From assembly GCF_003268655.1 (NCBI RefSeq), contig NZ_CP029642.1, forward strand, positions 2,914,001 to 2,978,000: a stretch of 64,000 nucleotides of DNA, read 5' to 3'. Each line of letters opens with the position of its first letter. Within the stretch, counting starts at the first letter, position 1. This DNA is from Arthrobacter dokdonellae. Lineage in GTDB: Bacteria > Actinomycetota > Actinomycetes > Actinomycetales > Micrococcaceae. The notes beneath the pieces were generated by a model. That model had not been told where the DNA came from, made no database searches, and worked only from the letters and a program-made list of their open reading frames with translations. Of the stretch, positions 3,241 through 52,700 are shown one piece after another. The position numbers and the translations under genes were made by a program.

Positions 3241-4070
3241 CTACGATAGAGCCCGGGGTGAATTTTACGCCCTTGGCTTTGATCAGCGGGCAAGGATGCC
3301 CCCCATTGTGACCCTGGAAGGCCAGATGTGCGACGTGATCGCGCCCACCAGGCGGTGACGTTCCCTTGGCCGCCGCTTCGGGTCCGGCCCCGGGCCCACC
3401 ATGGCCGTGACCTGCGGCTCTGAATCATAGATCGGGGTCATTTGGGGCCAACTCCCCCCAATTCATCAAAATTTCACACCCCTTTCACTCCCCTTTTGAC
3501 TGTCGTGCCTTGTCCGGCCAGTCACAGAGCTTTTCTGCACCGTGCACGGATGGGTCAGTTGGCGGCGGGTTTTGACTTTGACCGAGCCGCGCGCCGATAT
3601 CGTCGGTCCTAGTCGAACCGCCGCCCTTGGCCGAGGCATGCAGGAATTCAAGGTCCTGGGGGGAGATGCAGTGGGCCGTGCTGCATCAATTGCCATGCCT
3701 GCATTGCCCGGGACCGCCTTGATGACCCGAGCGACAGTAGCCGATACAGGGATGTCGTCGTTTTCAGCTTTCCACCGCAGCAAATGACCAACCAGCTGAA
3801 TAAGGGCACCGCCGGCAGCTGCGGCAGCTGAACATAGCGAAGCCGGGGCGATTGTGAAAGAAGCTCCCTGGAACCTTTCGGCGAGCGAAATTTCCACCTC
3901 CTGAAACGCGGAGCCATGCACGTCAATATTCTCAGCAAGGGCAGAAAAACTGTCCTTCCTTGGCTGAGCGGTCCGAAACTGTAGCCAGAGGGCTCATAAC
4001 GAGCAGGCCAACCGGCAGCGTGTCGTGGAAGGTGTCGAATTTGGCCGCCAGTTAAACCAATTCGGCTCGA
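3241..4070. other. Intergenic stretch holding repeat copy 1 and no convincing gene
   Basis: This is about 830 bp between the cupin gene and the fructan operon. Open frames on both strands lack recognisable motifs and ribosome sites. The one structured element seen is the degenerate tRNA-end repeat at 3361-3480 (listed separately), followed by C/T-rich sequence like that after copy 4. The rest looks like decayed DNA. Confidence 0.6.
3361..3480 (+). repeat. tRNA 3'-end repeat, copy 1 (degenerate)
   Basis: Positions 3366-3400 read like the T-arm and acceptor end of a tRNA (TTGGCCGCCGCTTCGGGTCC, then GGCCCCGGGCCCACC). They are followed by a GTGACCTGCGG segment and by ACTCCCCCCAATTCATC, both shared with copy 4 near 52.55 kb. 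No tRNA 5' half lies upstream. The T-stem no longer pairs fully, so this is the most decayed copy. Confidence 0.6.
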
Positions 4071-4074
4071 ATCC

Positions 4075-4132
4075 TTGACAATGCCAAAACGTTTTCGTAA
4101 CGTGGTTCACACAATATGCCAAAACGTTTTGG
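4075..4132 (+). promoter_or_regulatory. Promoter with two LacI-type operators before the fructan operon
   Basis: A -35 box TTGACA (4075-4080) and a -10 box TAACGT (4098-4103) are 17 bp apart. The spacer contains an operator CCAAAACGTTTTCG (4084-4097), and a second, perfect palindrome CCAAAACGTTTTGG lies at 4119-4132, just before the ribosome site of the lacI-type gene. This geometry predicts repression of the whole operon, including the regulator itself, by its own first gene. Confidence 0.8.
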
Positions 4133-4141
4133 GAGTGTGGA

Positions 4142-5173
4142 ATGAGCAGCAGGGTAGGGATACGTCAGGTGGCGAAGGCTGCGGGGGTGTCGGTGACCAC
4201 GGTGTCCCATGCGCTTAACGACGTCGGCGGCGCCCGTGTCAGTGAGGAGACCAGACAGCGGGTCCAGGCGGTGGCCCGGGAAATGAACTATGCACCCAAC
4301 CGGCTGGCCAGTGGATTGCGCAATCAGCGTTCCGGGACCATCGGATTCATCAGCGATGAAATTTCCACAACACCCTTCGCGGGGCGGATGATTCTTGGTG
4401 CGCAGGAAGCGGCCAAGAAGAAGGGCCTGTTGCTGCTGCTGCTGAACACCGCGGGTGACGTTGAGGTTGAGGAAGCGGAGATCAGGGCACTGCTCCAGCA
4501 CCAGGTCGATGGGATCGTCTACGCCACGATGTACCACCGCCAGGTGGACGTTCCCGAACTGCTCAGCGGCATCCCCACGGTCCTGGCGGACGCCTCGGCT
4601 CCGGGGGCGCGGGTCTCCTCCGTGGTGCCGGATGAGGAGCGCGGCGCACGCAGTGCTGTGTCCGAGTTGTTGGCCGCAGGGCACCGGCGGATCGGATTCG
4701 TCACGAACGAGGACAACATTCCAGCAACCAGGCAGCGCCTGGCAGGCTACAAGGCGGCCTTACGGGACTACGGGGTCGCGTATGAGCCTTCCCTGGTAGT
4801 CGCGCACCGGTCCACGGCCGCTGGCGGCTTCAATGCGGCCGCCCATCTTTTATCGCTGGATGACAGCCCCACTGCCCTGTTCTGCTTCAATGACCAGATG
4901 GCCATGGGCGCCTATCAGGCCGCTGCGGTGGCAGGGCTGAGCATTCCCGCCGATCTGTCAGTCATTGGTTTCGACAACTTGGAGATCATCGCCGGCAATC
5001 TCCTTCCAGCACTGACCACTATGCAACTTCCCCACTACGAAATGGGCGTCTGGGCCATAGAGCAGCTGGAACAGGAAATTGCCCGGCCCGCCGGTCCTGA
5101 CGATTCCGTGAAGCAGGTCCTGCTGGACTGCCCCCTGGTACGTCGCGACTCGGTCGCCCCACCTTCCCGGTAG
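4142..5173 (+). CDS. LacI-family transcriptional regulator of the sucrose/fructan operon
   Basis: This is a 343-residue repressor. The N-terminal helix-turn-helix and hinge (about residues 4-60: IRQVAKAAGVSVTTVSHALN, then NRLASGLRNQRSGTIGFI) are followed by a periplasmic-binding-protein-like sugar-sensing domain. In that domain the FCFNDQMAMGAYQAA and DLSVIGFDN stretches are family hallmarks. It is the first gene of an operon with a binding protein, two permeases, a kinase and a GH32 hydrolase. The expected effector is therefore sucrose, a fructo-oligosaccharide or a fructose phosphate (inference). Two palindromic operators sit in its own promoter, indicating autoregulation. Confidence 0.92.
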   Translation: MSSRVGIRQVAKAAGVSVTTVSHALNDVGGARVSEETRQRVQAVAREMNYAPNRLASGLRNQRSGTIGFISDEISTTPFAGRMILGAQEAAKKKGLLLLLLNTAGDVEVEEAEIRALLQHQVDGIVYATMYHRQVDVPELLSGIPTVLADASAPGARVSSVVPDEERGARSAVSELLAAGHRRIGFVTNEDNIPATRQRLAGYKAALRDYGVAYEPSLVVAHRSTAAGGFNAAAHLLSLDDSPTALFCFNDQMAMGAYQAAAVAGLSIPADLSVIGFDNLEIIAGNLLPALTTMQLPHYEMGVWAIEQLEQEIARPAGPDDSVKQVLLDCPLVRRDSVAPPSR

Positions 5174-5174
5174 A

Positions 5175-5205
5175 CCCGGCGCCCGGCCAATGGTCGGGCA
5201 CCGGG
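5175..5205 (+). terminator. Intercistronic hairpin after the LacI gene
   Basis: Imperfect stem: CCCGG-GCCCG (5175-5185) pairs with CGGGC-CCGGG (5195-5205), with one unpaired base per arm and an inner CC/GG. It has no U-tract. It may lower read-through from the regulator or protect the downstream mRNA end, so that binding protein is made in excess. Confidence 0.5.
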
Positions 5206-5288
5206 GCCGTGGCCACTCTTGCCCGTTGCACCGGGCATCTCGAGGGCCGGCGAAGCCGCCGTCCCACATTATCTATGGAGGAAACACT

Positions 5289-6593
5289 GTGAAATCTCAC
5301 AAAGTACGGCAGCTCACTGCCGCCAGTATAGCGGTCCTGGTGGCCGGTCTTTCGCTCGCTGGATGCAGTTCCGGCCCTGCGCCCTCCGGCTCTTCGGGCG
5401 CGTCCGGCAACGCGATCACGCTGTGGACGCACAACGCGGGCAACCCGGCCGAACTGGCGGCGGATCAAAAGATCGTGACCGCTTTCAACGCCAGCCAGAG
5501 CAAATACAAGGTCAATGTCCAGGCTTTCCCGCAGGCCTCCTACAACCAGTCGGTGGTCGCCGCCGCGGCCGCGGGGAAGCTCCCCTGCGTGCTGGACATT
5601 GACGGCCCGACGGTGCCTGACTGGGCCTGGGCAAAATATCTGGCTCCACTGGAGCTGGGATCCTCGATCGCCAACCAGTTGCCCAGCACGGTGGGCAAGT
5701 GGAATGGCAAGGTTTACGCGGTGGGCTACTACGACGTGGCCTTGGCCATGTTCGCCCGGAAGTCCGTGCTCGCCGATGCTGGCATTAGGATTCCCACCGT
5801 TTCGGATCCCTGGACCGGAACTGAATTCAACGCCGCCCTGGCCGCACTGAAAAAGACCGGGAAGTGGGCCGCGCCATTGGACCTGGGCACCAGCGGAACC
5901 GGTGAATGGTGGACGTACGCCTACTCCCCGATGCTGCAAAGCTTTGGTGGCGACCTGGTCAACCGCTCCGACTATCAAAGCGCCGATGGGGCCCTTAACG
6001 GTCCTGCCGCCGTCAAGTGGGCGACGTGGATGCGCGGGCTGGTCACCCAGGGCATCATCGCCCAAAAATCGGGTGCGGATGCGAATGCCGATCTGATCAA
6101 CAACAAAACCGCCATCGAGTACAGCGGTTCCTGGGCGGCCGCGCCGCTCTCCAAGGCACTGGGCAGCGACCTCGCCGTCCTTCCGGCGGTGAACTTCGGC
6201 GCCGGTCCGAAGATCGGTGGCGGCTCCTGGGAGTGGGGCATGACCAACAGCTGTGGAAACAAGGCCGCGGCCACCGCCTACCTGAAATTCTCCCTTCAGC
6301 CCCGGTACCAAACCGGAGTCGCCGTCGCTGCCGGCACCATCCCTGCCGACCAGTCCCCCGCCTCGCTGAAACTCGACCCCAGCTACGGCCCGGGCGGAAC
6401 GAACGAGATCTTCGCAAAGATGTCCAGCAAGTTCGCCGAACTGCGTCCCCCGACACCGGCGTACCCGTTCATCTCCACCACGTTTACGACCGCGGCCCAG
6501 AACATCCTTGCCGGGGCCGATGCCAAGAGCACCCTTGACCAGGCCGTTCAGAGCATTGATGCCAACATCAAGACAAACAACGGCTACAAGTAG
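5289..6593 (+). CDS. ABC importer sugar-binding lipoprotein (family 1)
   Basis: This is a 434-residue extracellular solute-binding protein. A basic n-region and hydrophobic segment end in the lipobox LAGC (Cys at about residue 25), so the protein is lipid-anchored outside the membrane. The mature part (ITLWTHNAGNPAELAADQKI, then DLINNKTAIEYSGSWAA) matches family-1 sugar-binding proteins. GTG 5289 is chosen because GGAGGA lies 8 bp upstream and because it starts directly with the signal peptide; a longer frame from 5190 would put a GC-rich tail before it. Two permease genes follow. The bound sugar is probably sucrose or short fructans because of the kinase and GH32 genes in the operon. Confidence 0.9.
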   Translation: MKSHKVRQLTAASIAVLVAGLSLAGCSSGPAPSGSSGASGNAITLWTHNAGNPAELAADQKIVTAFNASQSKYKVNVQAFPQASYNQSVVAAAAAGKLPCVLDIDGPTVPDWAWAKYLAPLELGSSIANQLPSTVGKWNGKVYAVGYYDVALAMFARKSVLADAGIRIPTVSDPWTGTEFNAALAALKKTGKWAAPLDLGTSGTGEWWTYAYSPMLQSFGGDLVNRSDYQSADGALNGPAAVKWATWMRGLVTQGIIAQKSGADANADLINNKTAIEYSGSWAAAPLSKALGSDLAVLPAVNFGAGPKIGGGSWEWGMTNSCGNKAAATAYLKFSLQPRYQTGVAVAAGTIPADQSPASLKLDPSYGPGGTNEIFAKMSSKFAELRPPTPAYPFISTTFTTAAQNILAGADAKSTLDQAVQSIDANIKTNNGYK

Positions 6594-6617
6594 CCGATCA
6601 ACGGACTCGTTCTTTAT

Positions 6618-6646
6618 CCGGGTGCGGGCGGCACGCCCGCACCCGG
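6618..6646 (+). terminator. Perfect intercistronic hairpin after the binding-protein gene
   Basis: A 13-bp perfect GC-rich stem (6618-6630 with 6634-6646) has a GCA loop and no U-tract. Such hairpins between binding-protein and permease genes commonly stabilise the upstream mRNA and set protein ratios. Confidence 0.75.
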
Positions 6647-6666
6647 TCCAACCCTTTGGACACATC

Positions 6667-7617
6667 ATGCTTCTATCCCAAACCACCCGCGCCGCAACGG
6701 GTGCCCCTCGCCCTCCCCGTCGCAGACGCCGCAACATACTTAGTGGCTCACGCGGTGAATCACTCACCGGCTTGGGCATGGTCGCCCCGGCCCTGATCCT
6801 GCTGGCGCTGTTCATCTTCATCCCGGCACTGCTTGCCTTCGTGCTGGCCTTCACCAATGCCCAGCTCATCTCGCCAAACCCCATCCAATTCACGGGACTG
6901 ACGAACTTCATCCAGCTTTTCCATGACCCCGTGTTTTACCGGTCCCTGGTGAACACGCTGTATTTCGCCGTCGTTGTCGTCCCGGTGCAGGCCGGCGCGG
7001 CACTGGTCATGGCCATCCTGGTCAACACCAAGACCCGCGGCACCAGCTTCTTCCGCACCATCTATTTCCTGCCCGTGGTGACCTCAATGGTGGTCGTTTC
7101 CATGCTCTGGCTGTTCATGTACCAGCAACACGGCCTGATCAACCAGGTCATCCACCAGCTCAGCTTCGGCCTGGTGACCGGGCCTGACTGGCTCAACAAC
7201 CCCGCAACGTCGATGCCCGCCATCATCTTGATGTCCGTCTGGCAAGGTGTCGGCTTCCACATGATCATCTGGCTTTCCGGACTCCAAACCATTGCCCCGG
7301 ACCTGTACGAGGCGGCCTCGCTTGACGGTGTCACGCCGTGGCAGCGTTTTCGCTACGTCACCTGGCCGGGGCTGCGCAACACCCGCGCCCTGGTTCTGGT
7401 GACCATCACCATCCAAGCGTTGAGCCTGTTCACCCAGGTCAGTGTCATGACCCAGGGCGGTCCGCTCTACTCCACGACGACCATGGTGTACGAAGCCGTC
7501 CAGACCGGCTACCAGCAGCAACAAACCAGCTACGCGTCGGCCATTTCACTGGTCTTCTTCGCCCTGGTCCTCATCGTCGCCGCCATCCAGCGGTTCCTCA
7601 CCCGAGAAAAGGCCTGA
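6667..7617 (+). CDS. ABC sugar transporter permease (MalF/UgpA type)
   Basis: This 316-residue inner-membrane permease has about six transmembrane segments. A basic N-terminus (RPPRRRRRN) precedes the first helix. The cytoplasmic EAA loop, which docks the ATPase, reads EAASLDGVTPWQRFRYVTWP. ATG 6667 is chosen because an in-frame extension to 6508 would overlap the binding-protein gene and add a non-membrane, arginine-rich tail. It pairs with the permease gene 3 bp downstream. No ATPase gene is present in the operon, so a shared MsiK-like ATPase encoded elsewhere is expected from what is known of actinobacterial sugar importers. Confidence 0.92.
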   Translation: MLLSQTTRAATGAPRPPRRRRRNILSGSRGESLTGLGMVAPALILLALFIFIPALLAFVLAFTNAQLISPNPIQFTGLTNFIQLFHDPVFYRSLVNTLYFAVVVVPVQAGAALVMAILVNTKTRGTSFFRTIYFLPVVTSMVVVSMLWLFMYQQHGLINQVIHQLSFGLVTGPDWLNNPATSMPAIILMSVWQGVGFHMIIWLSGLQTIAPDLYEAASLDGVTPWQRFRYVTWPGLRNTRALVLVTITIQALSLFTQVSVMTQGGPLYSTTTMVYEAVQTGYQQQQTSYASAISLVFFALVLIVAAIQRFLTREKA

Positions 7618-7620
7618 GCA

Positions 7621-8547
7621 ATGGCTACCACCACAACAACATCCGCCCACGCCCAGTCCACAGCAGTCGGCAAGCGCCCTCGCGCACCCCGCCACATCCT
7701 TGCCACCGTCGCCAAAACCGTCCTGGCCCTGGTCTTCGTGCTTCCCATCATCTTCATGTTCATCTCCTCGCTCAAGCCGGACTCACAAATATTCGCCGAT
7801 CTGGGCTCCCTGAAGGCCTTCCTGCCCGTCGGACACATCTCCTTCGCCAATTACACCGACGTCTTTAGCCGGGTGCCGATCCTGCAGTTCCTGATGAACT
7901 CAGTCGGCATTTCCGCCGTCACAGTCATTTTGGGATTGCTGGTGAACTCGCTGGCCGCCTTTGCGCTTTCCCGCATGCGGATACGGGGCAAAAGGATCAT
8001 TCTCACATTGATCATTGCCACACTGGTCGTTCCGTTCGAGACCCTCGCACTGCCGCTGGTCTGGTGGGTCAACCAACTTCCCTGGCTGCAGATCAATGGA
8101 TTCGACCTGTCCCTCACGCACGGCTGGCTTGACACCTACCGGGTCCAAATCATTCCCTTCATCGCCAACGCCTTCTCCGTCTACCTCTTCCACCAATACT
8201 TCGACAGTATTCCCAAGGAACTCGACGAAGCAGCAAGAATGGACGGCGCCGGCTGGTTCACCATTTACCGCAAGATCCTCATGCCGCTCTCCGGGCCCGC
8301 CATTGCGACCGTTGCCATTTTGACATTCCTCCCGGCCTGGAACTCATACCTGTGGCCCATCATGGTCATCCAATCCGAGAACCTGCGTCCGGTCATGGTC
8401 GGCGTCGAATACTTCTATCAGCTCAACGTGGCTTGGGGACAAATCATGGCCTACACCACCATGATCACCCTGCCCATCCTTGTCCTGTTCATCGCCTTCC
8501 AGCGCTCGTTCGTCAACAGCATCGCCAGCACCGGCGTCAAAGGCTGA
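7621..8547 (+). CDS. ABC sugar transporter permease (MalG/UgpE type)
   Basis: This 308-residue permease is the second membrane subunit of the importer. Six hydrophobic segments can be seen, starting with TVLALVFVLPIIFMFISSL. Its EAA loop is EAARMDGAGWFTIYRKILMP. The start codon is 3 bp after the stop of the first permease, so the two are translationally coupled. With the upstream lipoprotein they form an importer that lacks only its ATPase. Confidence 0.93.
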   Translation: MATTTTTSAHAQSTAVGKRPRAPRHILATVAKTVLALVFVLPIIFMFISSLKPDSQIFADLGSLKAFLPVGHISFANYTDVFSRVPILQFLMNSVGISAVTVILGLLVNSLAAFALSRMRIRGKRIILTLIIATLVVPFETLALPLVWWVNQLPWLQINGFDLSLTHGWLDTYRVQIIPFIANAFSVYLFHQYFDSIPKELDEAARMDGAGWFTIYRKILMPLSGPAIATVAILTFLPAWNSYLWPIMVIQSENLRPVMVGVEYFYQLNVAWGQIMAYTTMITLPILVLFIAFQRSFVNSIASTGVKG

Positions 8548-8589
8548 CAACCCCACCCGCACCGCACCCCCATCCCCAAGGACCTTCCT

Positions 8590-9537
8590 ATGCCCCACCA
8601 CCCGCCCCCCGACGGAGTGCCCGAAAAGAACGTGATGGTGGTCGGTGAAGCGCTCACCGACATCGTCCACACCCCCCACGGATCAACCGAACATCCCGGC
8701 GGTTCCCCGGCCAACGTCGCCTACGGGCTCGCCCGCCTGGGAGTCTCCACATCGCTCCTCACAGCCCTGGCCCCGGATCCCCGCGGCAAAACCATCCGCC
8801 GCCACCTCACCGATGCCGGGGTGAGGCTGCTGCCCGAATCCTGCTCCCTGGCCAGAACGTCAACAGCCACCGCAACCATCGCCCCCGACGGCTCCGCCAG
8901 CTACGCCTTCGATACCACCTGGCAGCTGCCATCAACCGAAGACCTTCCCACACCACTGTTACTGCACACCGGATCCATAGCCACATTCCTGGAACCCGGA
9001 GCGGCTACCCTGCGCGCTCTGCTCGGGCGCCTTCACGGCACCTGCCGCATTAGCTACGACCCGAACATTCGTCCTTCCCTGCTCGGATCGCAAGCACACG
9101 CCAGATGCACCTTCGAGGACACCGCAGCCCTGAGCGACGTGGTCAAGCTCAGCCAGGAGGACGCCATCTGGCTCTACCCTGACTCCGAGCAGCACGACGT
9201 CATTGACACCATCCTGCGGCTGGGCGTGGAGCTGGTTGTCGTCACCGACGGGGCGGCCCGAGCAATCCTCGCCACGCGCAAACACCGGGTGACCGTCCAC
9301 GCCGTGCGCACCAAAGTAGTGGACACCATCGGCGCCGGCGACTCCTACATGGCCGCACTGATCGCGGGCCTACTGGATACCGACCCGGGCACCCTCCCAC
9401 CCCCGGCCCTCGCCTCACTGGGGCAAATGGCAGCCACCGCTGCTGCGATCACCGTCAGCAGGCGCGGAGCCCAGCCGCCAACGGCCGCGGAACTGAACCT
9501 GCCAGAAAACCAGGCACGCATCCCGGCTGCCGGCTAA
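8590..9537 (+). CDS. PfkB-family carbohydrate kinase, probably fructokinase
   Basis: This 315-residue cytoplasmic sugar kinase has PfkB signature 1 at GGSPANVAYGLARLG (about residues 38-52) and signature 2 with the catalytic Asp at DTIGAGDSYMAAL (near residue 250). The N-terminal VVGEALTDIVHTPHG is typical of bacterial fructokinases. It sits between the importer and the GH32 hydrolase, so the likely reaction is ATP-dependent phosphorylation of fructose released from sucrose or fructans (inference from context). The length is normal for the family. Confidence 0.88.
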   Translation: MPHHPPPDGVPEKNVMVVGEALTDIVHTPHGSTEHPGGSPANVAYGLARLGVSTSLLTALAPDPRGKTIRRHLTDAGVRLLPESCSLARTSTATATIAPDGSASYAFDTTWQLPSTEDLPTPLLLHTGSIATFLEPGAATLRALLGRLHGTCRISYDPNIRPSLLGSQAHARCTFEDTAALSDVVKLSQEDAIWLYPDSEQHDVIDTILRLGVELVVVTDGAARAILATRKHRVTVHAVRTKVVDTIGAGDSYMAALIAGLLDTDPGTLPPPALASLGQMAATAAAITVSRRGAQPPTAAELNLPENQARIPAAG

Positions 9538-9580
9538 CCAGCCCCGTCATTCCCCCACGCACCCACGGAAAGTCCCACCC

Positions 9581-11164
9581 ATGAACCCCAAAACCATCAA
9601 CCACGCCCTCCAGCCCGCAGCTAAGCCACGGCCAGGCGGCGACGGCGTTGAGCCACCCCGCGAGGTGTCCGGTTCAGAAAACTACCGCCCAGCCATCCAC
9701 TACACACCCCGCAGGAACTGGATCAACGATCCCAACGGACTACTGCACCACAACGGCCTCTATCATCTGTTCTACCAATACAACCCGAACTCCAGCGTGC
9801 ACGCGAACATGTCTTGGGGCCACGCCAGCTCGACCGATTTACTCCACTGGGAAGAGCACCCGGTCGCCATTCCCTGTGACGAGGAGGAACAGATCTTCTC
9901 CGGCAGCGCCGTCTTCGACGCCCACAATTCCAGCGGCCTCGGCACCGTCGACAACCCACCCCTGGTGGCCGTCTACACCAGCGCCTACACCAACCCGTCC
10001 GCGCTAGCCGGCAGACAGGCCCAGTCCCTGGCTTACAGCCTGGACGGGGGCAGCATCTGGACCAAGTACGCGGCAAACCCCGTTCTGGACCGGGGATCCG
10101 CCAACTTCCGCGACCCCAAAGTCTTCCGCCATACCCAAGGCGAAGCCTCCTACTGGGTGATGGTGGCTGTCGAGGCCCAGGCCCGCACCGTGGAGTTATA
10201 CCGCTCGGAGAACCTCACAGAGTGGACCCATCTCTCCAGCTTCGGACCCGCCAACGCCACCGGCGGCGTCTGGGAATGCCCGGACCTTTTCGAACTGCCC
10301 GTGGACGGGGACCCCGACACCACGCGCTGGATGCTCGTGGTCAACCTCAACCCTGGCGGCGTCGCCGGCGGCTCCGGGGCACAATACTTCATCGGTACCT
10401 TCAACGGCACGACCTTCACCCCCGAAAACACCACCACCGCCGGGACCGACGCCGGCACGAAACCGTTACGCCAATACGACTGGCTCGATTGGGGCAGGGA
10501 CTACTACGCGGCCGTGTCCTACAACAACGCCCCGGACGGGCGGCGGATCATGACCGGCTGGATGAACAACTGGGACTACGCCGCCGACGTGCCGCATGAA
10601 CCATGGTGCGGAGCCATGACCCTGCCCCGAGAAATCACCCTCACCCGCCACCACGGAGTCATCCGACCCAGCCAGCACGTCGTCCCGGAAATCGACAATA
10701 AATTCAAGGCCGCGGCGGCGTCAAGTGACGGGCCCAGAGTGATCCAGGACGAAATCCAGCTCCTGGCCACTCACGACGCCAACGAAGCGCAGCGAATCGA
10801 TGCCGTCTTCACCCCCGGTACCGGAACCGAGTTCGGCCTGATCATCCGCGGCGGCAACGGCCACGGCACCCGCATCGCCTACAACACATCCACCGGCTGC
10901 CTCCACCTCGACCGAACCAAATCCGGCGTCGTTGCCTTCAACTCGCTATTCTCCTCCATCGAATCCGTCCCCGTACACCTCTCCAACGGAACACTGGCCC
11001 TACACATCTATCTGGACAAATCCTCAGTGGAAGTCTTCACCGCCGACGGACTGGCCACCATCACAGACCAAATCTTCCCCCTCGAAACCAGCCAGGAACT
11101 CTCCGCCTACGCAAACGGAGGTTCCGCCACCCTGGACAGCCTGACCATTGGATACCTCTCCTGA
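9581..11164 (+). CDS. Intracellular glycoside hydrolase family 32 (sucrose/fructan hydrolase)
   Basis: This 527-residue GH32 enzyme shows the three catalytic blocks: nucleophile D50 in WINDPNG, transition-state stabiliser D178 in FRDPK, and acid/base E232 in ECPDLF. A five-bladed propeller is followed by a C-terminal beta-sandwich (about residue 370 on). There is no signal peptide, so it works on imported sugar in the cytoplasm. It releases fructose from sucrose, inulin-type or levan-type oligosaccharides; the linkage cannot be told from sequence alone. It is the last gene of the operon, after a fructokinase-like gene. An IS1595 element starts about 150 bp downstream. Confidence 0.92.
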   Translation: MNPKTINHALQPAAKPRPGGDGVEPPREVSGSENYRPAIHYTPRRNWINDPNGLLHHNGLYHLFYQYNPNSSVHANMSWGHASSTDLLHWEEHPVAIPCDEEEQIFSGSAVFDAHNSSGLGTVDNPPLVAVYTSAYTNPSALAGRQAQSLAYSLDGGSIWTKYAANPVLDRGSANFRDPKVFRHTQGEASYWVMVAVEAQARTVELYRSENLTEWTHLSSFGPANATGGVWECPDLFELPVDGDPDTTRWMLVVNLNPGGVAGGSGAQYFIGTFNGTTFTPENTTTAGTDAGTKPLRQYDWLDWGRDYYAAVSYNNAPDGRRIMTGWMNNWDYAADVPHEPWCGAMTLPREITLTRHHGVIRPSQHVVPEIDNKFKAAAASSDGPRVIQDEIQLLATHDANEAQRIDAVFTPGTGTEFGLIIRGGNGHGTRIAYNTSTGCLHLDRTKSGVVAFNSLFSSIESVPVHLSNGTLALHIYLDKSSVEVFTADGLATITDQIFPLETSQELSAYANGGSATLDSLTIGYLS

Positions 11165-11318
11165 CCGACCAGACCTGCGAACGATGACACCAACCGGACC
11201 CACACACACGTCAGGAGAGACCAAAAGACGATCAGTGACAACCTCCCGCAGCGGTCCCTGTGAGCTGCCTGCCTGACGAGCGTGTGACGCTAGTGGGTGC
11301 GGCTTGTGAAAAAGAGGA

Positions 11319-12610: not shown

Positions 12611-12725
12611 ATAGAGGAATATCCGACGCTAGGGATTTTTCGTGCGTCGTAGTGGCCTGTATTTGCGTGGTTTGATCTTGTTGGTGCGTGGGCACGGTAA
12701 CCGACTGCGGGGTTGGTTCTCCAGG

Positions 12726-42493: not shown

Positions 42494-42524
42494 CGCGGGG
42501 AACCAAAACCTCGCTGATACAGTG

Positions 42525-42558: not shown

Positions 42559-42585
42559 ACGTCCCATTCCAGGAAGAAGAAACAC

Positions 42586-44110: not shown

Positions 44111-44130
44111 GCACCGAGCCTACGGCATTG

Positions 44131-44147
44131 CATCTGCAAAACAGATG
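44131..44147. promoter_or_regulatory. LysR-type dyad in the divergent region
   Basis: CATCTG (44131-44136) and CAGATG (44142-44147) form a perfect 6-bp inverted repeat around CAAAA, 21 bp from the lysR start. Size and place fit a LysR recognition-binding site. Confidence 0.6.
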
Positions 44148-44265
44148 ATTTAGTTCGGAAAAAACTGTTCGACAGATTTGGACGACCGTTGGAAGCTGGA
44201 AGCATACGCCGGTTTGAACCGGCTGGTTCCTTCCAGACCACATTGCCACAGCTAAGGACGATCCC

Positions 44266-44679: not shown

Positions 44680-44681
44680 AC

Positions 44682-45353: not shown

Positions 45354-46533
45354 TCTCCCCCCGGGATCGGTACCCTTCCGCGCCGGCCCCGAAACGGCAA
45401 CCGAGCGCGTCCTTAACTCCGTCCGGGCCGAACACCCCGCCCTGGTGGCCTACTCCGAGACCCTCCATGCCAATCCCGAACTCGGCTGGGAAGAACACCG
45501 GGCAGCGGCCTGGACCGCCGAGTTCCTGGAAGCCCGCGGCTTCGCCGTCGAACGTGGCTACCTCGGATTCCCGACCGCCATTCGGGCCATACTGGGCACC
45601 GGCAGCCGGAGGATCGGCCTCATGGCCGAATACGATGCTCTCCCCGGGCTCGGGCACGCCTGTGGACACAACATCATTTCCGCTGCATCTGTCGGTGCAG
45701 CGTGTGCACTGGCCGGTTTCGCCGCCGAATACGACCTAAGCGTCGAGCTCTACGGAACCCCTGCCGAGGAAGGCGGCGGCGGCAAGATCGAATTGCTCAA
45801 GCGAGGGGCCTTTGTGGGCCTGGACCTTGCCATGATGGTTCATCCCAGCCCCGTCGACTCGGCAGTGGCGAACCCCTTTGCCGTCGCCCACCAGCACGTG
45901 GAATACCGCGGCAAGTCCGCCCACGCAGCCGCCTACCCAGACCAAGGAGTCAACGCCAACGACGCCTTTCTGATAGCACAGATGGCCATAGGGCTGCTGC
46001 GCCAGCAGCTGCCGAAGGAAACCCGTGTCCACGGGATACAGACTCGCGGCGGAGAGGCACCCAACGCGATCCCGGAAACCACCCAAGGCCGCTGGTACGT
46101 CCGGGCCGAAACCCTCGCCGAGCTGGGGCCGCTGAACGAGCGCGTGAACAAGTGCTTTGAGGCGGGCGCCCTGGCCACCGGCTGCGAACTGGAGATCACC
46201 GCCGAATCTGAACCGTACTCCGAGTTTCGTACCGATGAACGGGCCCTGGGCATCTACACACGGCATGCCATGGCACTGGGGCGCTCCTTCGACGCCCCGC
46301 CAGAGCATGCCACCATGAACCGTGCCTCCACCGACATGGGCAACGTCTCGCAGATCGTCCCGGCGATCCACCCCTATATCGGCCTTGGATGTTTCCCTGC
46401 AGCCAACCACCAGCCAGAATTCGCCGCCCACTGCATCGGCGACGCAGCCAACCTGGCCATACACGACGGGGCAGTCGCCCTGGCACTTACCGCACTGGAC
46501 TACGTCAGGGTCCCCGGAGCCGGCAAGAAATGA
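45343..46533 (+). CDS. M20-family amidohydrolase/peptidase
   Basis: This 396-residue zinc-dependent hydrolase is of the AbgA/AbgB-like branch. Metal and catalytic regions are GLGHACGHNIISAASVG, PAEEGGGGKIELLKRG and MVHPSP; the dimerisation domain follows from about residue 180 (HVEYRGKSAHAAAYPDQGVN). It cleaves an amide bond, releasing an amino acid. In front of an aspartase gene the obvious candidate products are aspartate-like amino acids from N-acyl, N-formyl or N-aryl amides (inference). Its stop overlaps the aspartase start as ATGA. Confidence 0.9.
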   Translation: MSDSLPPGSVPFRAGPETATERVLNSVRAEHPALVAYSETLHANPELGWEEHRAAAWTAEFLEARGFAVERGYLGFPTAIRAILGTGSRRIGLMAEYDALPGLGHACGHNIISAASVGAACALAGFAAEYDLSVELYGTPAEEGGGGKIELLKRGAFVGLDLAMMVHPSPVDSAVANPFAVAHQHVEYRGKSAHAAAYPDQGVNANDAFLIAQMAIGLLRQQLPKETRVHGIQTRGGEAPNAIPETTQGRWYVRAETLAELGPLNERVNKCFEAGALATGCELEITAESEPYSEFRTDERALGIYTRHAMALGRSFDAPPEHATMNRASTDMGNVSQIVPAIHPYIGLGCFPAANHQPEFAAHCIGDAANLAIHDGAVALALTALDYVRVPGAGKK

Positions 46534-48002
46534 GTGAACAGAACATGGACCACCAAACATTGGCCGCCACCGACGAGGCGGGTCAGACGGGCGCGCCGGT
46601 CCGCCTCGAGCGGGACTCCCTGGGCGAGCGCGAGGTCCCGGCAGGCGCCTACTGGGGCATCAGCACACTGCGCGCCGTCGAGAACTTTCCCATCAGCGGA
46701 CGCCCGGTGGGCAGCATGCGCTCGCTCCTCTGGGCCTTTGGGTCGGTCAAATGTGCGGCCGCCAGGGCCAACACCGCCCTTGGCCTTCTCGACGCAGAGC
46801 GCGGGCTGGCCATCGAGGTGGCCGCGCTGGAAGTCCGCGACGGGGTCTTCGACACAGAATTCCCCGTCGACCGGATCCAGGGCGGGGCCGGCACCAGCAC
46901 CAACATGAACGTCAACGAAGTCATTGCCAACCGCGCACTGGAGATCCTCGGCTTCGAAAAGGGCGATTACGCCCAACTCGATCCCATCGACCATGTCAAC
47001 CGCGGCCAAAGCACCAATGACACCTATCCCACGGCGGTCAAGATCTCACTTCAGTCAGCGCTCCTGGACTACTGCCGCGAACACCAGCTGCTGATCAATT
47101 CCTTCGCTGCCAAGGGCAGCCAGTTCGCAGGTATCGTCAAGGTCGGGCGGACCCAGCTCCAAGATGCCGTCCCCATGACCCTTGGGCAGGAATTCGGCGC
47201 GTTCGCCGAGACGCTGCGTGAGGACCTGGCTCGGATGAACGAACTCAGCCCCCATCTCAAAGAGATCAACCTCGGGGCGACCGCCATAGGCACAGGCATC
47301 ACCGCCCATCCGGAATACCGATCGCGCGTCACGCTCGAACTGAATGGGCTGACGGGCCTCGGGCTGGTCTCCGCCCACGACCTGGTCGAGGCGACATCCG
47401 ACACCGGGGTGTTCATGCTGCTTTCCGGCGTACTCAAGCGTTCAGCGGTCAAGCTCTCAAAGATCTGCAACGACCTGCGTCTGCTCTCCTCCGGACCACA
47501 ATCGGGCTTCAACGAAATTTTCCTGCCCGCCGTTCAAGCCGGATCATCCATCATGCCGGGAAAGGTAAACCCGGTGATTCCGGAAGTCGTCAATCAGGTG
47601 GCGTTCAAGGTGGTGGGCGCCGACGCAACAGTCACCATGGCCGTGGAGGCGGGACAACTGCAATTAAACGCGTTCGAGCCGGTCATGGCCGACTGCCTGC
47701 TCGAATCCATGGAGTGGTTGACCTCAGCGTGCCGGACGCTGCGCACCAAGTGTGTTGATGGAATCGAGGCCAATGAGCCCGTGTTGGCCCGACGCATGGC
47801 CGAATCCGTCAGCATCGTCACCGGGATGGCACCATTCATCGGCTACACACACGCCGCCGCGCTGGCCAAGGAATCCTTGGCCACCGGCCGCGGCATCAGG
47901 GAACTCGTGATCGCGCAAGGACTCCTTGAGGCGGACCGCCTCGATGCCCTGCTCTCGCCCTCCGCCCTGGCAGGGTTTCCAGTCCCGACCCCTACGCACT
48001 AA
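46530..48002 (+). CDS. aspA: Aspartate ammonia-lyase (class II fumarase/aspartase superfamily)
   Basis: This 490-residue enzyme converts L-aspartate to fumarate and ammonia. The superfamily signature GSSIMPGKVNP carries the catalytic serine loop. GAGTSTNMNVNEVIANRALE and HVNRGQSTNDTYPTA match the substrate-binding blocks of aspartases and fumarases, and the TSTNMNVNEV wording fits aspartase. ATG 46530 overlaps the M20 stop by 4 bp; the open frame continues upstream only as a shadow of that gene. It is the last gene of the LysR-controlled operon and feeds the pathway's carbon into the TCA cycle. Confidence 0.88.
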   Translation: MSEQNMDHQTLAATDEAGQTGAPVRLERDSLGEREVPAGAYWGISTLRAVENFPISGRPVGSMRSLLWAFGSVKCAAARANTALGLLDAERGLAIEVAALEVRDGVFDTEFPVDRIQGGAGTSTNMNVNEVIANRALEILGFEKGDYAQLDPIDHVNRGQSTNDTYPTAVKISLQSALLDYCREHQLLINSFAAKGSQFAGIVKVGRTQLQDAVPMTLGQEFGAFAETLREDLARMNELSPHLKEINLGATAIGTGITAHPEYRSRVTLELNGLTGLGLVSAHDLVEATSDTGVFMLLSGVLKRSAVKLSKICNDLRLLSSGPQSGFNEIFLPAVQAGSSIMPGKVNPVIPEVVNQVAFKVVGADATVTMAVEAGQLQLNAFEPVMADCLLESMEWLTSACRTLRTKCVDGIEANEPVLARRMAESVSIVTGMAPFIGYTHAAALAKESLATGRGIRELVIAQGLLEADRLDALLSPSALAGFPVPTPTH

Positions 48003-48276
48003 CGCAAAGCCACTTGAGGGGCCCCGATGGCGCATCACCTGGCGTCATCGATTTCCCGTCGACACGGTGGTGGCGATGGCAGTGGGTCGACGGCGCCAAT
48101 CTGCATCTGAATAATCGATGCGATTGACCGCTAACGAATGTTTGAAAGATGAATGAAAATACGGTTTTGTAAAGGTATTCCGATGGACGAAAAACCTCCC
48201 CGCCGGGGAGCCACCCCCAGCACCCACAGGTGCATCGTCACGTTGGAGCAGACTATCTACAGCAATGGAGGTTGAC

Positions 48277-49608
48277 ATGTCGAAGCAAGAGACCGAAGTC
48301 GTAATCGTCGGCGCGGGCCAGGCGGGAGTGGCAATGAGCGAGCACCTAAGTGCCCGAGGCATCCCCCATCTCGTTCTGGAACGGGACCGTATTGCCGAAC
48401 GGTGGCGCACCGGACGGTGGGACTCCCTGGTGGCCAACGGTCCCGCCTGGCACGATCGCTTTCCCGGCCTGGAATTTGACGATGTCGACCCCGAAGGGTT
48501 CGCTCCCAAGGAACGGGTGGCGGACTACTTCGCGGCCTACGCCGAAAAGTTCGACGCTCCCATCCATTGCGGCGTCGAGGTCAAGAAGGTGCGCAGGAAC
48601 GCCGACAGACCCGGCTTCCAGGTGGACACATCCGAAGGCACCATCAACGCCCGCTACGTTGTCGCCGCAACGGGGCCGTTCCAGAAACCCGTGATTCCCG
48701 CAGTCGTTGACGCAGACACAGGACCGCTGCAGATGCACTCCAGCTCCTACCGAAACCCGCAGCAGCTTCCCGAGGGCGGGGTGCTGGTCGTGGGCGCCGG
48801 ATCATCGGGAGTGCAGATCGCCGAGGAACTGCGGCGGTCAGGGCGGCAGGTGTTCCTCTCCGTCGGTCCGCATGATCGTCCCCCGCGGCACTACCGCGGC
48901 CAGGACTTCTGCTGGTGGCTTGGCGTCCTGGACAAATGGTCTGCGGTCGCACCCCCCCGGGGCGCAGAACACGTCACCATAGCCGTCAGTGGCGCCAACG
49001 GCGGGCACACAGTGGACTTCCGTGCCCTCGCCGCAAACGGCATCAGGCTCGTAGGCCGGACCAATTCGTATGACCACGGGACCATGCACTTCGCATCGGA
49101 CCTTGCACGCAACATCGCCAACGGTGATGCGAACTACTTGTCAGTACTCGATGAGGCCGATGCATACATCGCGCGCAACGGCCTGGATTTCCCGGAAGAA
49201 CCCCTCGCCCGGGATCTTGGCGCCGATCCTCAGGATGTAACGGACCCGATCAGTGAGCTCGATCTCGCTGGCGCCGGCGTTACGACGATCATTTGGGCAA
49301 CCGGCTTTGCGGTCGACTACAGCTGGCTCGACGTCGACGTCGTTGACGACAACGGCCGCCCCCGCCACCAGCGAGGCGTGTCCCCGGAGAGCGGCATTTA
49401 CTTCCTGGGACTGCCGTGGCAGTCTCACCGTGGATCTAGCTTCATCTGGGGCGTATGGCATGACGCCAAATACCTGGCTGAGCAAATCGCGATTCAACGC
49501 GGCTACCTTGCCCACCTTGGTGCCCAACAACGCAACGAACACCACGCCGCCCAGGACAGCACCATCGATTTCCTTGAGGAAAAACTCGCAGACATGCAAT
49601 CGGTGTAA
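48277..49608 (+). CDS. Flavin-containing monooxygenase-like NAD(P)/FAD enzyme
   Basis: This 443-residue enzyme has an FAD-binding VIVGAGQAGVAMSEHL at its N-terminus, an NADPH-binding LVVGAGSSGVQIAEEL in the middle, and the IIWATGF motif near residue 345. This pattern is that of class B flavin monooxygenases (FMO/YUC-like). ATG 48277 is chosen because GGAGG at 48267-48271 lies 5 bp before it; ATG 48265 is upstream of that site. It lies 275 bp after the aspartase gene on the same strand. It could hydroxylate a nitrogen heterocycle or amine of the same catabolic region, but its substrate is unknown. Confidence 0.88.
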   Translation: MSKQETEVVIVGAGQAGVAMSEHLSARGIPHLVLERDRIAERWRTGRWDSLVANGPAWHDRFPGLEFDDVDPEGFAPKERVADYFAAYAEKFDAPIHCGVEVKKVRRNADRPGFQVDTSEGTINARYVVAATGPFQKPVIPAVVDADTGPLQMHSSSYRNPQQLPEGGVLVVGAGSSGVQIAEELRRSGRQVFLSVGPHDRPPRHYRGQDFCWWLGVLDKWSAVAPPRGAEHVTIAVSGANGGHTVDFRALAANGIRLVGRTNSYDHGTMHFASDLARNIANGDANYLSVLDEADAYIARNGLDFPEEPLARDLGADPQDVTDPISELDLAGAGVTTIIWATGFAVDYSWLDVDVVDDNGRPRHQRGVSPESGIYFLGLPWQSHRGSSFIWGVWHDAKYLAEQIAIQRGYLAHLGAQQRNEHHAAQDSTIDFLEEKLADMQSV

Positions 49609-49835
49609 GAGCCGGGATGGTCAGCCGCATCCTCAACGGCATCGGAGAACTCCCAACGGTTCCGGACCCCAAGGACTTCGCGATACTTCCGGGACACCGG
49701 ATGAAGAGGACATCTTGGACGACCTGAACCTGAGTGTGAAAAGGATCAATCCTTCACAAGAGGTCCCCTATGCTGCTCTCCAAAGCAGCATCGGGGACCT
49801 TTCCCGCACTTCACCCCCAACCCCGTAGAGGAAGC

Positions 49836-50507
49836 GTGATCCACGTGTTGAATATCCCGGCAATTACCTGGACCCTCACGGCCCTGCTTCTCCTCAGCGG
49901 CAGCTACCACCTCCGGCAGGCCGCCAGGTCTCCCCGACGCACGGAACAGATCAATAACAGCATCCATGCCCTTATGCACATCCTGATGGCCGCCATGTTA
50001 TGGCAGCTGGCCCCTTCGACCGTGCTGGCTCAAATCACGGTCCTCACCGGCGCGGCACTATGGTTCATCATCCAGGCAGTCGCCCGGCCCGAATTCAAAA
50101 TCCTATGCTCGAAAGGCCCAGGCCGACTCAAATGCTTCTACCACAGCCTGAGCATGGCCGGTGCCGCAACGATGATCGCCATGATGGGACAAATGTCCAC
50201 CGGAACAGGAAGGGCTCCTACCGACGCAATGGCCGGAATGTCCATGTATCACGGCAATCACGCAATGACAGGCCCAGCCAAAACTACACCCACAACAATC
50301 GGCCACTCCCCTAACCTGGCCATCCTGTTAACAGCAGTCTTCACAGCAGCAGCCATCACTTTCATCATCCTGCTACTCCGAACCCGGGCCACACAAACCA
50401 CCCACTACAACACGGCCGCGCCAAAAATCTCCAAACGCGCAGATCACGCACTAGAAGCACTCGGTGCCGCCGTCATGGCCCTCATGTTCGCCACCATGAT
50501 GGCATAA
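49836..50507 (+). CDS. DUF5134-like multi-helix membrane protein, Met/His-rich
   Basis: This 223-residue integral membrane protein has about five hydrophobic segments (ITWTLTALLLLSGSYHL, HALMHILMAAMLWQLAP, ITVLTGAALWFIIQ and two later ones). A Met/His-rich loop (MAGMSMYHGNHAMTG) is suggestive of metal binding. This layout matches the actinobacterial DUF5134 family, function unknown. GTG 49836 follows AGAGGA; a longer frame to 49770 has no membrane logic. It stands alone between the monooxygenase and the ISL3 element. Confidence 0.75.
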   Translation: MIHVLNIPAITWTLTALLLLSGSYHLRQAARSPRRTEQINNSIHALMHILMAAMLWQLAPSTVLAQITVLTGAALWFIIQAVARPEFKILCSKGPGRLKCFYHSLSMAGAATMIAMMGQMSTGTGRAPTDAMAGMSMYHGNHAMTGPAKTTPTTIGHSPNLAILLTAVFTAAAITFIILLLRTRATQTTHYNTAAPKISKRADHALEALGAAVMALMFATMMA

Positions 50508-50963: not shown

Positions 50964-50971
50964 TCTTTTTC

Positions 50972-52407
50972 GGCTCTCCTGACGTATCCGTGGGTTAGTT
51001 TCGGCCCGGGAGGACGGGTTTGTGGCCTCCCAAGCTGAGCATGGCTAGGGCGATCAGTGCCTCGGGTTTCTTGAAGCCGAAGGCGATGCGGGTGATGAGC
51101 CTGATCTTGGTGTTCATGGATTCGATGCGGCCATTGGAGAGTCCGTGTTCGATGGCGGCCAGGATGTTGGGACGCTGGTCGACGATGGTTCGTTGTAGTT
51201 TCACGAAGGCGGGGAGCTGGGACCGCCGGGCCCAGGAAATCCAGGAATCGAGTGCTTCGTCGGCATCTTCCAGCGGTAGTTTGAAGATGGTCCGCAGGGC
51301 TTCCTTGAGGAAGTAGGCGCGAGCCAGATCCGGATTGGTTTGCACGATCCAGGCGAGTTTGGTTTGTTGTCGTTCGGTGAGGTCTTCCGGGTTTTTCCAG
51401 AGCGCGTAGCGGGAGTTTTTCAACCCTGCTGCCCGGGCGCTGTCGGGCCGTGGCGGGGCGTCTTGGGGAGGGCGTCCCCGACCCCGGTAGGGTTCGTTGG
51501 CGCGGGCGGCTTTACGGGCCTCATTCCAGGCGCCACGGCGGACGTTATCGAGGGCATCGGTGGCCCATGAAACGACGTGGAACGGGTCCGCGCAGCGGAC
51601 CGCGTGGGGGCATTTAGCGGCAACAACGTGGGCAATCCAGCTGGCCCCATCAGCGGAAACATGGGTGATCTGCGCGGATCGTTCGGCGCCGAGGGCGTCG
51701 AAGAACTTGCTCAGCGTCGCGATATCCCGGCCCGGGCAGGCCCACACCAGCCGGCCAGTGTCGTGGTCAACGACGATGGTCAAATATTTATGTCCGCGCT
51801 TGTAGGAGATCTCGTCAATACCGATCCTGGAGAGGTTCGCGAACGGGTCAAAGGTCGCGGCAGTGTCAGCCCAGACCCGGGTGATGATCGCCCCGACGGT
51901 CCGCCAAGCGATCCGCATCAATTCGGTGATCGCGGTCTTCGAGGTTTGGGTTGCCAACCAGGCGACCTGGGCATCAAAAGCCAGGGTGTGTCCGGCCTGG
52001 TGTCGGGCCCAGGGAACGGCCGCTACGACCACGCCGTGCTCCCGGCACCTCACCCTTGGTGCGTCGGCTTCCAGGACCGCCGGGACCGTGCCGAGATCCA
52101 GGGCCCGCCAGCGGCGCCGTCCTTCACCCTGATCATATTTCGGGCACCGCCGCCGACACACACCACACCGACGCGCACTGGCCGCGGAAGGCCTGACAGA
52201 AGCAATCAGAACCCCGGAGACACTGTCATAGTTGACGTCCTCCACGACCGTTTTTTCGACACCGAGCAGGGTTCGCCATAGTGTTGCATCTTGCACGCCG
52301 CTTTCCGATCTTCAGTTTCTTTTCTTAGACAGTCAGAAACCTAGACGGAAAGCGGCGTGTCCTCGTTAAGCCACGCCAAACGAACCCACGGAAGAGTCAC
52401 AAGAGCC
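50972..52407 (-). mobile_element. ISL3-family insertion sequence with perfect 8-bp target duplication
   Basis: The element is 1436 bp. Its ends form an imperfect 27-bp inverted repeat (50972-50998 and 52381-52407) sharing GGCTCT, TGAC and TCCGTGGGTT. TCTTTTTC occurs directly before (50964-50971) and directly after it (52408-52415), the 8-bp duplication expected for ISL3. The perfect duplication and intact transposase suggest a recent insertion. It landed in the upstream part of repeat copy 4. Confidence 0.95.
50995..52296 (-). CDS. ISL3-family transposase
   Basis: This 433-residue transposase has an N-terminal zinc-finger-like Cys cluster (ARRCGVCRRRCPKYDQGE), then a DDE catalytic domain with GIDEISYKRGHKYLTIVVD, a second Asp in VSADGASWI and Glu in NGRIESMNTKIRL. 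The helix RIAFGFKKPEALIALAML near the end is typical of ISL3. Length and domains are complete, so it should be active. Confidence 0.95.
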   Translation of the reverse strand: MQDATLWRTLLGVEKTVVEDVNYDSVSGVLIASVRPSAASARRCGVCRRRCPKYDQGEGRRRWRALDLGTVPAVLEADAPRVRCREHGVVVAAVPWARHQAGHTLAFDAQVAWLATQTSKTAITELMRIAWRTVGAIITRVWADTAATFDPFANLSRIGIDEISYKRGHKYLTIVVDHDTGRLVWACPGRDIATLSKFFDALGAERSAQITHVSADGASWIAHVVAAKCPHAVRCADPFHVVSWATDALDNVRRGAWNEARKAARANEPYRGRGRPPQDAPPRPDSARAAGLKNSRYALWKNPEDLTERQQTKLAWIVQTNPDLARAYFLKEALRTIFKLPLEDADEALDSWISWARRSQLPAFVKLQRTIVDQRPNILAAIEHGLSNGRIESMNTKIRLITRIAFGFKKPEALIALAMLSLGGHKPVLPGRN

Positions 52408-52415
52408 TCTTTTTC

Positions 52416-52700
52416 TCGTCTATTTCAACCGAAAACCACGGCAATTACTGACATGTCATAGGCGCCAACAACTCCGAAAGTTCCCGAGAATACACGATTA
52501 TTGATAGACAGCGGCACCCCTCAGCATCCAGATGGTGAGATTCTCTTGGCCGCCGGTTCGAGTCCGGCCCGGGGCACCAATTATGGCCCTGACCTGCGGT
52601 TATGTCCAGTGGGTCGGGGCCATTTGGGAGCAACTCCCCTTTTACTCCCCCAATTCATCAATATTTTCTTTCACTTTCGCTCCCCCTTTTCAGCAAGTCA
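52416..52700 (+). repeat. tRNA 3'-end repeat, copy 4 (best conserved CCA end)
   Basis: The upstream part (TTTCAACCGAAAACCACGG, GACATGTCATAGGCG from 52427) matches copies 2 and 3; it is cut from its left flank by the ISL3 element. The tRNA-like part is TTCTCTTGG (52540) to GCCGGTTCGAGTCCGGC and CCGGGGCACCA (ending near 52580), with a perfect T-stem. CCCTGACCTGCGGTTATGTCC and GGGTCGGGGCC follow but pair less well. ACTCCCCCAATTCATCA is shared with copy 1. No tRNA 5' half is present. Confidence 0.78.

Follow-up and report, generated by a model that had tools for sequence, protein, structure and literature searches.

The 64,000-nucleotide stretch analysed here, called the window in the following, comprises positions 2914001-2978000 of contig C1 of the Arthrobacter dokdonellae genome (G000; 4.53 Mb in two contigs). 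With a probability of about 0.8 it belongs to an array built by accretion, in which genomic islands have entered one after another at the 3' end of a tRNA-Arg(UCU) gene. Four repeats on the same strand, read directly at window positions 3361-3421, 24013-24074, 32948-33010 and 52541-52604, are copies of this 3' end: behind the tRNA 3' part through T-arm and acceptor, the core of a presumed attachment (att) site, come a motif resembling a terminator and then a T/C-rich tail. They delimit three blocks, W1 (3.4-24.0 kb; 20.6 kb), W2 (8.9 kb) and W3 (32.9-52.5 kb; 19.6 kb). A 65-position sequence model (R1) searched against the own genome recovered copies 1 to 4 on the plus strand with E-values of 9.1e-8, 1.3e-16, 1.3e-18 and 1.5e-20 (34.5, 62.9, 69.3 and 75.4 bits). 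Copies 2-4 belonged to the training set of the model; the degenerate copy 1, with seven mismatches to the core consensus, had been left out and nonetheless reached its 34.5 bits. Direct reading and model matches confirmed the four tRNA 3'-end repeats reported in an earlier note on this DNA, and the leaders of copies 2-4 and the T/C-rich tails described there were real on inspection. ARAGORN called no tRNA within the window.

A row of probable islands downstream of tRNA-Arg(UCU)

The intact gene is located 114 kb left of the window at C1:2799851-2799923 on the plus strand (Rfam tRNA, 61.8 bits; ARAGORN calls the gene tRNA-Arg(tct) in the named locus L154). It begins with GCCTCGG, not with the GCCCCGG that had been guessed, and is followed by the same terminator-like motif. 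The genome search proposed for this gene and for more copies yielded both: a mismatch scan located ten same-strand copies to the right of the tRNA, at 2857969, 2862818, 2876134, 2884663, 2917362, 2938014, 2946949, 2966542, 2999960 and 3011684, six of them in addition to those of the window. A junction at 3040194 kept leader and tail, its core being deleted. A further tail, of the type B defined below, stands without a core at 2991685. The row spans about 240 kb and is divided into eleven intervals of 4.8-58 kb each, with G+C contents of 56.2-62.7 % per interval, 67.7 % in the 39 kb to the left and 64.3 % in the 19 kb to the right. Several insertion sequence (IS) genes lie within the row; genes were called with a simple in-house caller. 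A lone copy of the tRNA 3' end was observed outside the array at C1:2051233-2051294 on the minus strand (L001/L095, 51.2 bits), with two tyrosine recombinase genes about 2.4-5 kb away; recombinases of the same kind occur at three other places in the genome.

The genus set consisted of 23 genomes including G000; other G numbers denote comparison genomes. Stretches were fetched where matches appeared, not around every match, and amounted to 38 regions from 22 genomes (21 of the 23 genus genomes and G076). They contained 98 cores, 18 after an intact 5' half and 80 without. All 18 intact genes read TTCTAA before the core, and several 3' alleles were present among them. Complete T-stem pairing, with all five pairs, was seen in 65 of 80 pseudo copies, whereas 5,000 shuffles gave 31 on average and at most 44; this comparison yields no probability because the copies are related. 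The middle pair varies between C-G, G-C, T-A and A-T. Kept pairing together with several 3' alleles is consistent with islands that supply their own tRNA 3' end in place of the resident one. CCA is not encoded by six of the 18 intact genes (G002, G005, G008, G010, G011 and G017; CAA or CCC instead), and these ends were apparently brought in by an integrated 3' end. In some copies the sequence to the left, as far as TCTCTTGG, is not that of a tRNA (G006 1335063, G010 438472, G021 3979559), which fits secondary integration sites with the crossover at this position. A second row with five cores and A, B and D units was observed at G003:C1:2641936-2677623 (L115-L117); the 60 kb fetched there held no intact tRNA.

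Blocks as units

Leaders and tails sorted into three motif types, A (CACG, then T/A-rich), B (CTCCCC) and D (CATCTTTT-like). With the repeat as the element, the leader and the tail of a copy are expected to be of the same type; with the block as the element, the match is expected between the tail at its left and the leader at its right. Motif typing gave agreement within the block in 38 of the 46 units typed at both ends (60 units in total), with a shuffle mean of 18.3, a maximum of 31 and none of 20,000 shuffles reaching this number. The motifs had been picked after viewing the G000 junctions and the tally rule was later tightened; all counts refer to the tightened rule, and one G076 match belonging to another tRNA was removed before counting. 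Hidden Markov model (HMM) typing gave agreement within 42 of 53 blocks (0 of 20,000 shuffles), with HMMs built from the motif-typed ends that they then scored. The shuffles treat copies as unrelated and ignore kinship. A check free of classes pointed in the same direction: on average the two ends of a block had 6.0 9-mers in common, compared with 2.6 for blocks from different regions and 2.8 for the ends at one core. Because the ends agree within blocks, and less often across cores, it is the blocks and not the repeats that are, or once were, the units.

In the window, ends were scored with nhmmer profiles, all on the plus strand. W1 starts with a B-type tail at 3402..3568 (tailB 83.2 bits, tailD 18.8), which belongs to copy 1, a copy without a recognisable leader, and ends with an A-type leader at 23816..24013 (leadA 195.5 bits). 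W2 extends from a D-type tail at 24055..24241 (tailD 148.6 bits, tailB 50.2) to a B-type leader at 32748..32948 (leadB 145.6 bits, leadD 56.6), W3 from a D-type tail at 32988..33182 (tailD 133.5 bits, tailA 53.2) to a D-type leader at 52406..52541 (leadD 113.1 bits, leadB 72.8, leadA 27.5). The latter was left untyped by motif and was not among the ends used to build the HMMs. A B-type tail at 52584..52770 (tailB 127.4 bits) opens the next block, which continues past the window to C1:2999960.

The mixed ends of W1, a B tail and an A leader, suggest two joined elements. After they had pointed to a fusion, the two halves were found apart in two species: the left half in G022:C14, 90 % identical and followed by a B-type leader, the right half in G004. 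That W1 represents two fused modules is thus well supported by sequence comparison. The mismatched D tail and B leader of W2 would reflect a fusion through deletion and IS activity. W3, with cores on both sides and D ends on both sides by HMM, is a coherent D-type unit. The description of the window as an array of cargo modules held insofar as the blocks are or were units; matching ends are limited to the 19.6-kb block. End-type pairing offers a simple sequence test that parts intact modules from fused ones.

Occurrence in the genus Arthrobacter

The repeat model matched all 23 genus genomes at E-values up to 0.01. At E-values up to 1e-6, 13 of them had at least three matches and 10 at least five, some matches being partial. 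Within the family, under stricter filters, 93 of 245 genomes matched at E-values up to 1e-6, and more than two matches were confined to the genus and to G076 of another genus. The distance from the tRNA to a shared stretch of right chromosome was about 16 kb in G010 (two cores), 26-27 kb in G009 (one core), 72 kb in G021 (three cores), 168 kb in G002 (five cores) and 200 kb in G003 (seven cores). A second shared right stretch lies 352 kb from the tRNA in G000 (eleven cores); in G003 this distance is 193 kb, in G009 17 kb. The last junction in G000 is at 240 kb, and the array leaves part of its 352-kb interval unaccounted for. The right flank was mapped by DNA comparison, since a Tad-type ATPase considered as marker matched at an E-value of 1e-100 in only 9 of the 23 genomes; matches running in the same direction over 700 bases or more, at 72 % identity or above, were used, of which some are not collinear (e.g., two G000-G002 matches). 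G002 and G010 share 4.5 kb of right flank at 85-91 % identity, starting 0.4-1.2 kb after their last cores; like flanks thus enclose 124 kb in one genome and 3.7 kb in the other.

Parts of units are nearly identical in different species. Up to the core, the right 4.7 kb of a G006 unit match the right end of the G019 head element, the unit next to the tRNA, at 98.4 % identity, and a G013 unit and the G003 head element have two stretches of about 2.8 kb in common at 96-97 % identity. This comparison covered all G000 rows and, for the other rows, the matches listed. Seven relatives match the G000 chromosome immediately left of the tRNA at 83-85 % identity. The 96-98 % identical unit parts show recent transfer at the tRNA site within the genus. 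A plasmid search with junction DNA gave one short match.

Integrases and the head element

Two Phage_integrase (Pfam) matches were obtained in the G000 row, at 2848361 and 2885908, both outside the window. The corresponding genes start at 2847809, open and preceded by an excisionase-family gene, and at 2885356, with an in-frame stop in the N-terminal part. The window itself had no Phage_integrase match, with serine integrases not searched genome-wide. The absence of an integrase noted earlier therefore holds for the window and not for the array of eleven intervals, where the tyrosine recombinase that was to be sought in the flanks was encountered twice. Relatives with at least 57 % identity occurred in 10 of the 23 genus genomes. 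Among the ten genomes with at least five repeat matches, five (G002, G006, G010, G017, G022) had no relative of this tRNA-Arg-type integrase (P0002) above 45 % identity. No Phage_integrase match was found inside the rows of G002 (124 kb, five cores), G010 (3.7 kb) and G011 (6.1 kb); the G006 row contained one fragment below the cut-off, and a cluster of other recombinases is located just past its last core. Counting matches of at least 150 residues on the strand of the cores, 11 of 60 units had an integrase-family sequence, broken ones included, and none was apparent in the other 49.

Lambda-type integrases read the arms of their sites with the N-terminal part. In the integrases of the rows the N-terminal stretches differ between two subtypes, A and B. 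Units with subtype A (83-100 % identical) had A at all 14 typed ends; units with subtype B (65-80 % identical, broken copies included) had B at six of seven. These counts show an association of assigned integrase subtype and end type; arm reading by the subtype would be the mechanism behind it. A D-type integrase was not recognised among the units, and no intact B- or D-type integrase was found in G000.

Twelve named loci with the integrase were found, mostly in Arthrobacter, including A. silviterrae, A. sp. GMC3, HY1533, SDTb3-6 and H35-MC1; in five of the twelve, more distant relatives adjoin tRNA-Met instead. A record titled Sporosarcina beigongshangi REN13 (L148) carries the integrase as well; the record name may be wrong. 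A relic of a tRNA-Arg-type integrase, with four stops, stands at C1:1144844-1145434 (minus strand); over residues 125-319 it shares 76 % identity with P0002. Tyrosine recombinases are grouped three in a row at two places, G000:C1:394273-396751 and 1117059-1119408, in what may be RIT-like arrangements.

Unit 1 (2799889-2857969) is the tRNA-proximal element, of A type, and lies six intervals left of W3. It encodes a MobF relaxase (NF041492, 241.9 bits, cut-off 100), a VirD4-like coupling protein (TraG-D_C, PF12696), a VirB4-like protein, an NlpC/P60 protein, a homologue of DNA polymerase III alpha, an excisionase (TIGR01764, above cut-off) and the integrase (PF00589). The set of integrase, excisionase, relaxase and coupling protein is present; for the mating apparatus, the VirB4-like match was below the curated cut-off and the NlpC/P60 protein accompanies it. 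Unit 1 is therefore considered a putative integrative conjugative element (ICE). At least 6 kb of DNA related to unit 1 were located in the tRNA-adjacent unit of G003, G007, G013, G014, G016, G019 and G021 and in one further G003 unit. As cargo, unit 1 carries five minus-strand genes at C1:2801817-2818174 (L049:1817-18174), four of which match PADLOC models (type II restriction enzyme, DrmMI/type IIG methylase, DpdE/DrmD helicase, DruE), possibly a mixed defence system on a conjugative element. Unit 1 also encodes, at C1:2851498-2853237 (L051:11498-13237), a protein that combines a caspase domain with one of the sulfatase-modifying-factor (FGE) type.

Proposed mechanism and alternative explanations

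Each island would carry a replacement tRNA 3' end as core and the arm regions of a recombinase, the tail at its left and the leader at its right end. A tyrosine integrase would recombine the island core with the tRNA core, so that the tRNA 5' half stays in place and the 3' half is the island copy, while the old 3' end is pushed to the right as a pseudo-att site; repetition would produce a row of islands on one strand. The three end types have one core in common, and integrase subtypes A and B would pair with A and B ends through arm recognition. By accretion, unit 1 could take A-ended neighbours with it in cis, or it could provide integrase in trans, and in this way the head element may mobilise units without integrase. 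The D- and B-ended units of the window, for which G000 offered no intact matching integrase, are probably stranded cis-mobilizable elements (CIMEs), in part joined to one another through deletions and the activity of IS elements. Comparison strongly supports integration at the tRNA in which its 3' end is exchanged, and supports repeated accretion at this site. The intact tRNA at the head of the row, the same-strand copies and the agreement of block ends bear out the tandem integration at one tRNA 3' end that had been proposed.

Several observations weigh against this interpretation. Eight of the 46 typed units are mixed, W1 and W2 among them, and in G021 a subtype-B unit has one end typed as A. 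The ends flanking the same core agreed in 24 of 49 cases by motif (mean 17.5, reached by 623 of 20,000 shuffles) and in 28 of 58 by HMM (mean 21.4, reached by 743 of 20,000), a slight excess over the shuffles. The sucrose module of G022, the counterpart of the left half of W1, stands between an A-type tail and a B-type leader and is thus also mixed; no core was found after its B-type leader, and neither an A-type end nor another end sequence was seen in the G004 contigs that hold the right half of W1. No right-flank anchor was obtained in G019 (94 kb examined) or G011 (55 kb). The G+C content of 64.3 % on the right side in G000 is only slightly above that of the units. The comparison set consists of different species, none with a proven empty site, and the evidence is made up of sequences and not of excision assays.

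The strongest competitor, to which we give a little less than an even chance, is a fixed relic: the islands entered long ago by site-specific integration, and the window blocks, with decayed sites and no mobilisation, are now permanent chromosome. The degenerate copy 1, the deleted core at 3040194, the core-less tail at 2991685, the mixed ends of W1 and W2, the lack of a recognised intact B- or D-type integrase in G000 and the arrays without P0002-family integrase in G002, G006, G010, G017 and G022 all speak for it. However, the D ends and core of W3 are intact, the head element looks complete, and unit parts of 96-98 % identity occur in different species.

The target tRNA, the tyrosine recombinase and the variable cargo would also suit elements that a helper phage packages, be they phage satellites or similar to tycheposons. 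We consider this improbable, as an element of conjugative type heads the row and a comparison of the copy 3 junction with 50,697 phage records gave no match; genes for packaging were not looked for. Still less probable is an origin of the row other than repeated site-specific integration, whether through duplication of a single island or through homologous recombination together with IS transposition. Several IS genes in the row and the fusion in W1 might speak for it, but in a self-comparison the repeated parts were almost only the ends and the two integrase genes, not the cargo, and the copies differ in 3' alleles and end types; duplication of one island was rejected on these grounds. A dispersed noncoding repeat unrelated to tRNA, with the blocks as ordinary chromosome, is hardly credible: parts of the terminator-like motif are present at other tRNA genes, a lone copy stands at 2051233 and end agreement across a copy is in weak excess, yet the copies continue the intact tRNA exactly, keep the T-stem pairing, form a row on one strand and have ends agreeing within blocks, and this explanation was rejected as well. 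An integron cassette array was dismissed, since the junctions are tRNA 3' ends and the G000 intervals measure 4.8-58 kb with several genes each; IntI was not searched by name.

Taking the accretion array further, tRNA-Arg(UCU) might serve the whole genus Arthrobacter as a docking site. Modules, most of them lacking an integrase, would be stacked there and exchanged in the manner of very large cassettes, with one core and at least three compatibility groups defined by their arms, each read by its own integrase subtype from conjugative elements, and with the head element deciding which stretches leave together. We put this forward tentatively, at somewhat less than even odds. If arm type and integrase subtype form such a compatibility code, it would tell, for islands without integrase, which of them can still move and what moves them, a point that is seldom settled for islands of this kind. 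The array shows how a soil genus can gather and trade catabolic genes and candidate defence genes at a single tRNA locus, where the interval differs more than tenfold between species.

Relation to known systems

The closest known kind is the tandem accretion of CIMEs, which have att sites, lack integration and transfer genes and lie in tandem with an ICE or an integrative mobilizable element (IME) possessing them at one shared site; the passages of the source report that mobilisation was shown for some CIME-ICE pairs (PMC5704250). W3 has att sites at both ends, W1 and W2 have cores on both sides with mixed ends, and no Phage_integrase match as sign of own integration genes was obtained in these blocks. 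The likeness lies in att-flanked elements without integrase, in tandem at one site; as far as CIMEs are described in these passages, the present array differs with up to eleven cores per row, its recurrence in species of the genus and three end-type groups on one core, and it is known from sequence alone (PMC5704250).

In Dehalococcoides, tandem islands follow one RNA gene, ssrA, and repeats of the ssrA 3' end delimit each of them; an integration module is lacking in 15 of 31, and the authors consider CIMEs and accretion (PMC3146451). According to the passages of that report, these islands differ by the tmRNA target, a Ccr-related serine recombinase module, repeats within 100 kb and the absence of conjugation genes, and end-type groups are unmentioned there (PMC3146451). 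The additive fGI-2 of Methylophilaceae is described with a variable number of 20-bp repeats of a tRNA-Lys 3' end and variable islands, similar to the rows of Arthrobacter; its islands of 330 bp to 42 kb and mostly unknown proteins set it apart (PMC10872708). Tandem actinomycete ICEs at tRNA-Arg or tRNA-Lys share the phylum Actinobacteria, the tRNA 3' end and the tandem order, and tandem elements of Frankia excise singly or together; in the account given there they are pairs with their own integrases (PMC3218068), whereas the G000 head element has VirB4- and VirD4-like proteins.

The earlier note had compared the blocks to known genomic islands and to tycheposons. The former comparison stands for islands at tRNA genes, the latter fits less well than CIME accretion. 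Tycheposons are cargo-carrying, tRNA-associated elements with a tyrosine recombinase. In these three respects they resemble the Arthrobacter array, for which no phage link was seen, with packaging genes outside the search; one source lists tycheposons among proposed phage satellites (PMC11389934). New compared with the known systems are the larger scale, the recurrence across the genus, the conjugative-type head element and the several end-type groups on one core. Among the titles and abstract openings of a literature search that covered neither bioRxiv preprints nor most subscription papers, no title on such an array in Arthrobacter was found.

Cargo of the window blocks

The left half of W1 (4031..11177, plus strand) encodes a LacI-type regulator, sugar ABC permeases, a kinase and a sucrose-6-phosphate hydrolase family protein, assigned by family matches, and is 90 % identical to G022:C14 3814-10965. 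An IS1595 family transposase marks the seam (11810..12556, plus strand; NF033547, 150 bits, cut-off 75). The right half (12712..23151, genes on both strands) is 86-93 % identical to G004:C48 and C90; family matches indicate SDR and Gfo/Idh/MocA oxidoreductases, a sugar isomerase-like protein, a LacI regulator, a KDPG aldolase and an MFS transporter. W2 contains an IS transposase with an rve integrase-core domain (24893..25720, plus strand; PF00665, 64.6 bits). Its cargo at 26138..32471 (no strand assigned) comprises SIS and ROK proteins, an ABC permease, a solute-binding protein and a DeoR regulator (Pfam), and the stretch 25800-32471 had no match in the other 22 genus genomes at an E-value of 1e-30.

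Among the window proteins scanned, which took in part of the window genes, no conjugation families were detected. Present mobility of W1 and W2 is judged doubtful, and W3 may or may not move. The cargo of W3 at 33662..50507 (no strand assigned) includes amino-acid and NCS1 transporters, amidohydrolases, an aldehyde dehydrogenase, a primary-amine oxidase, a LysR regulator, an aspartate ammonia-lyase family protein and a flavin oxidoreductase (NCBIfam), and is followed by an ISL3 family transposase (50995..52032, minus strand; NF033550, 247.6 bits, cut-off 180). Clusters similar to this cargo occur at 71-80 % identity in G004:C47, where no core is present, and one such cluster (73 %) is carried by plasmid CP012478 of Arthrobacter sp. 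ERGS1:01.

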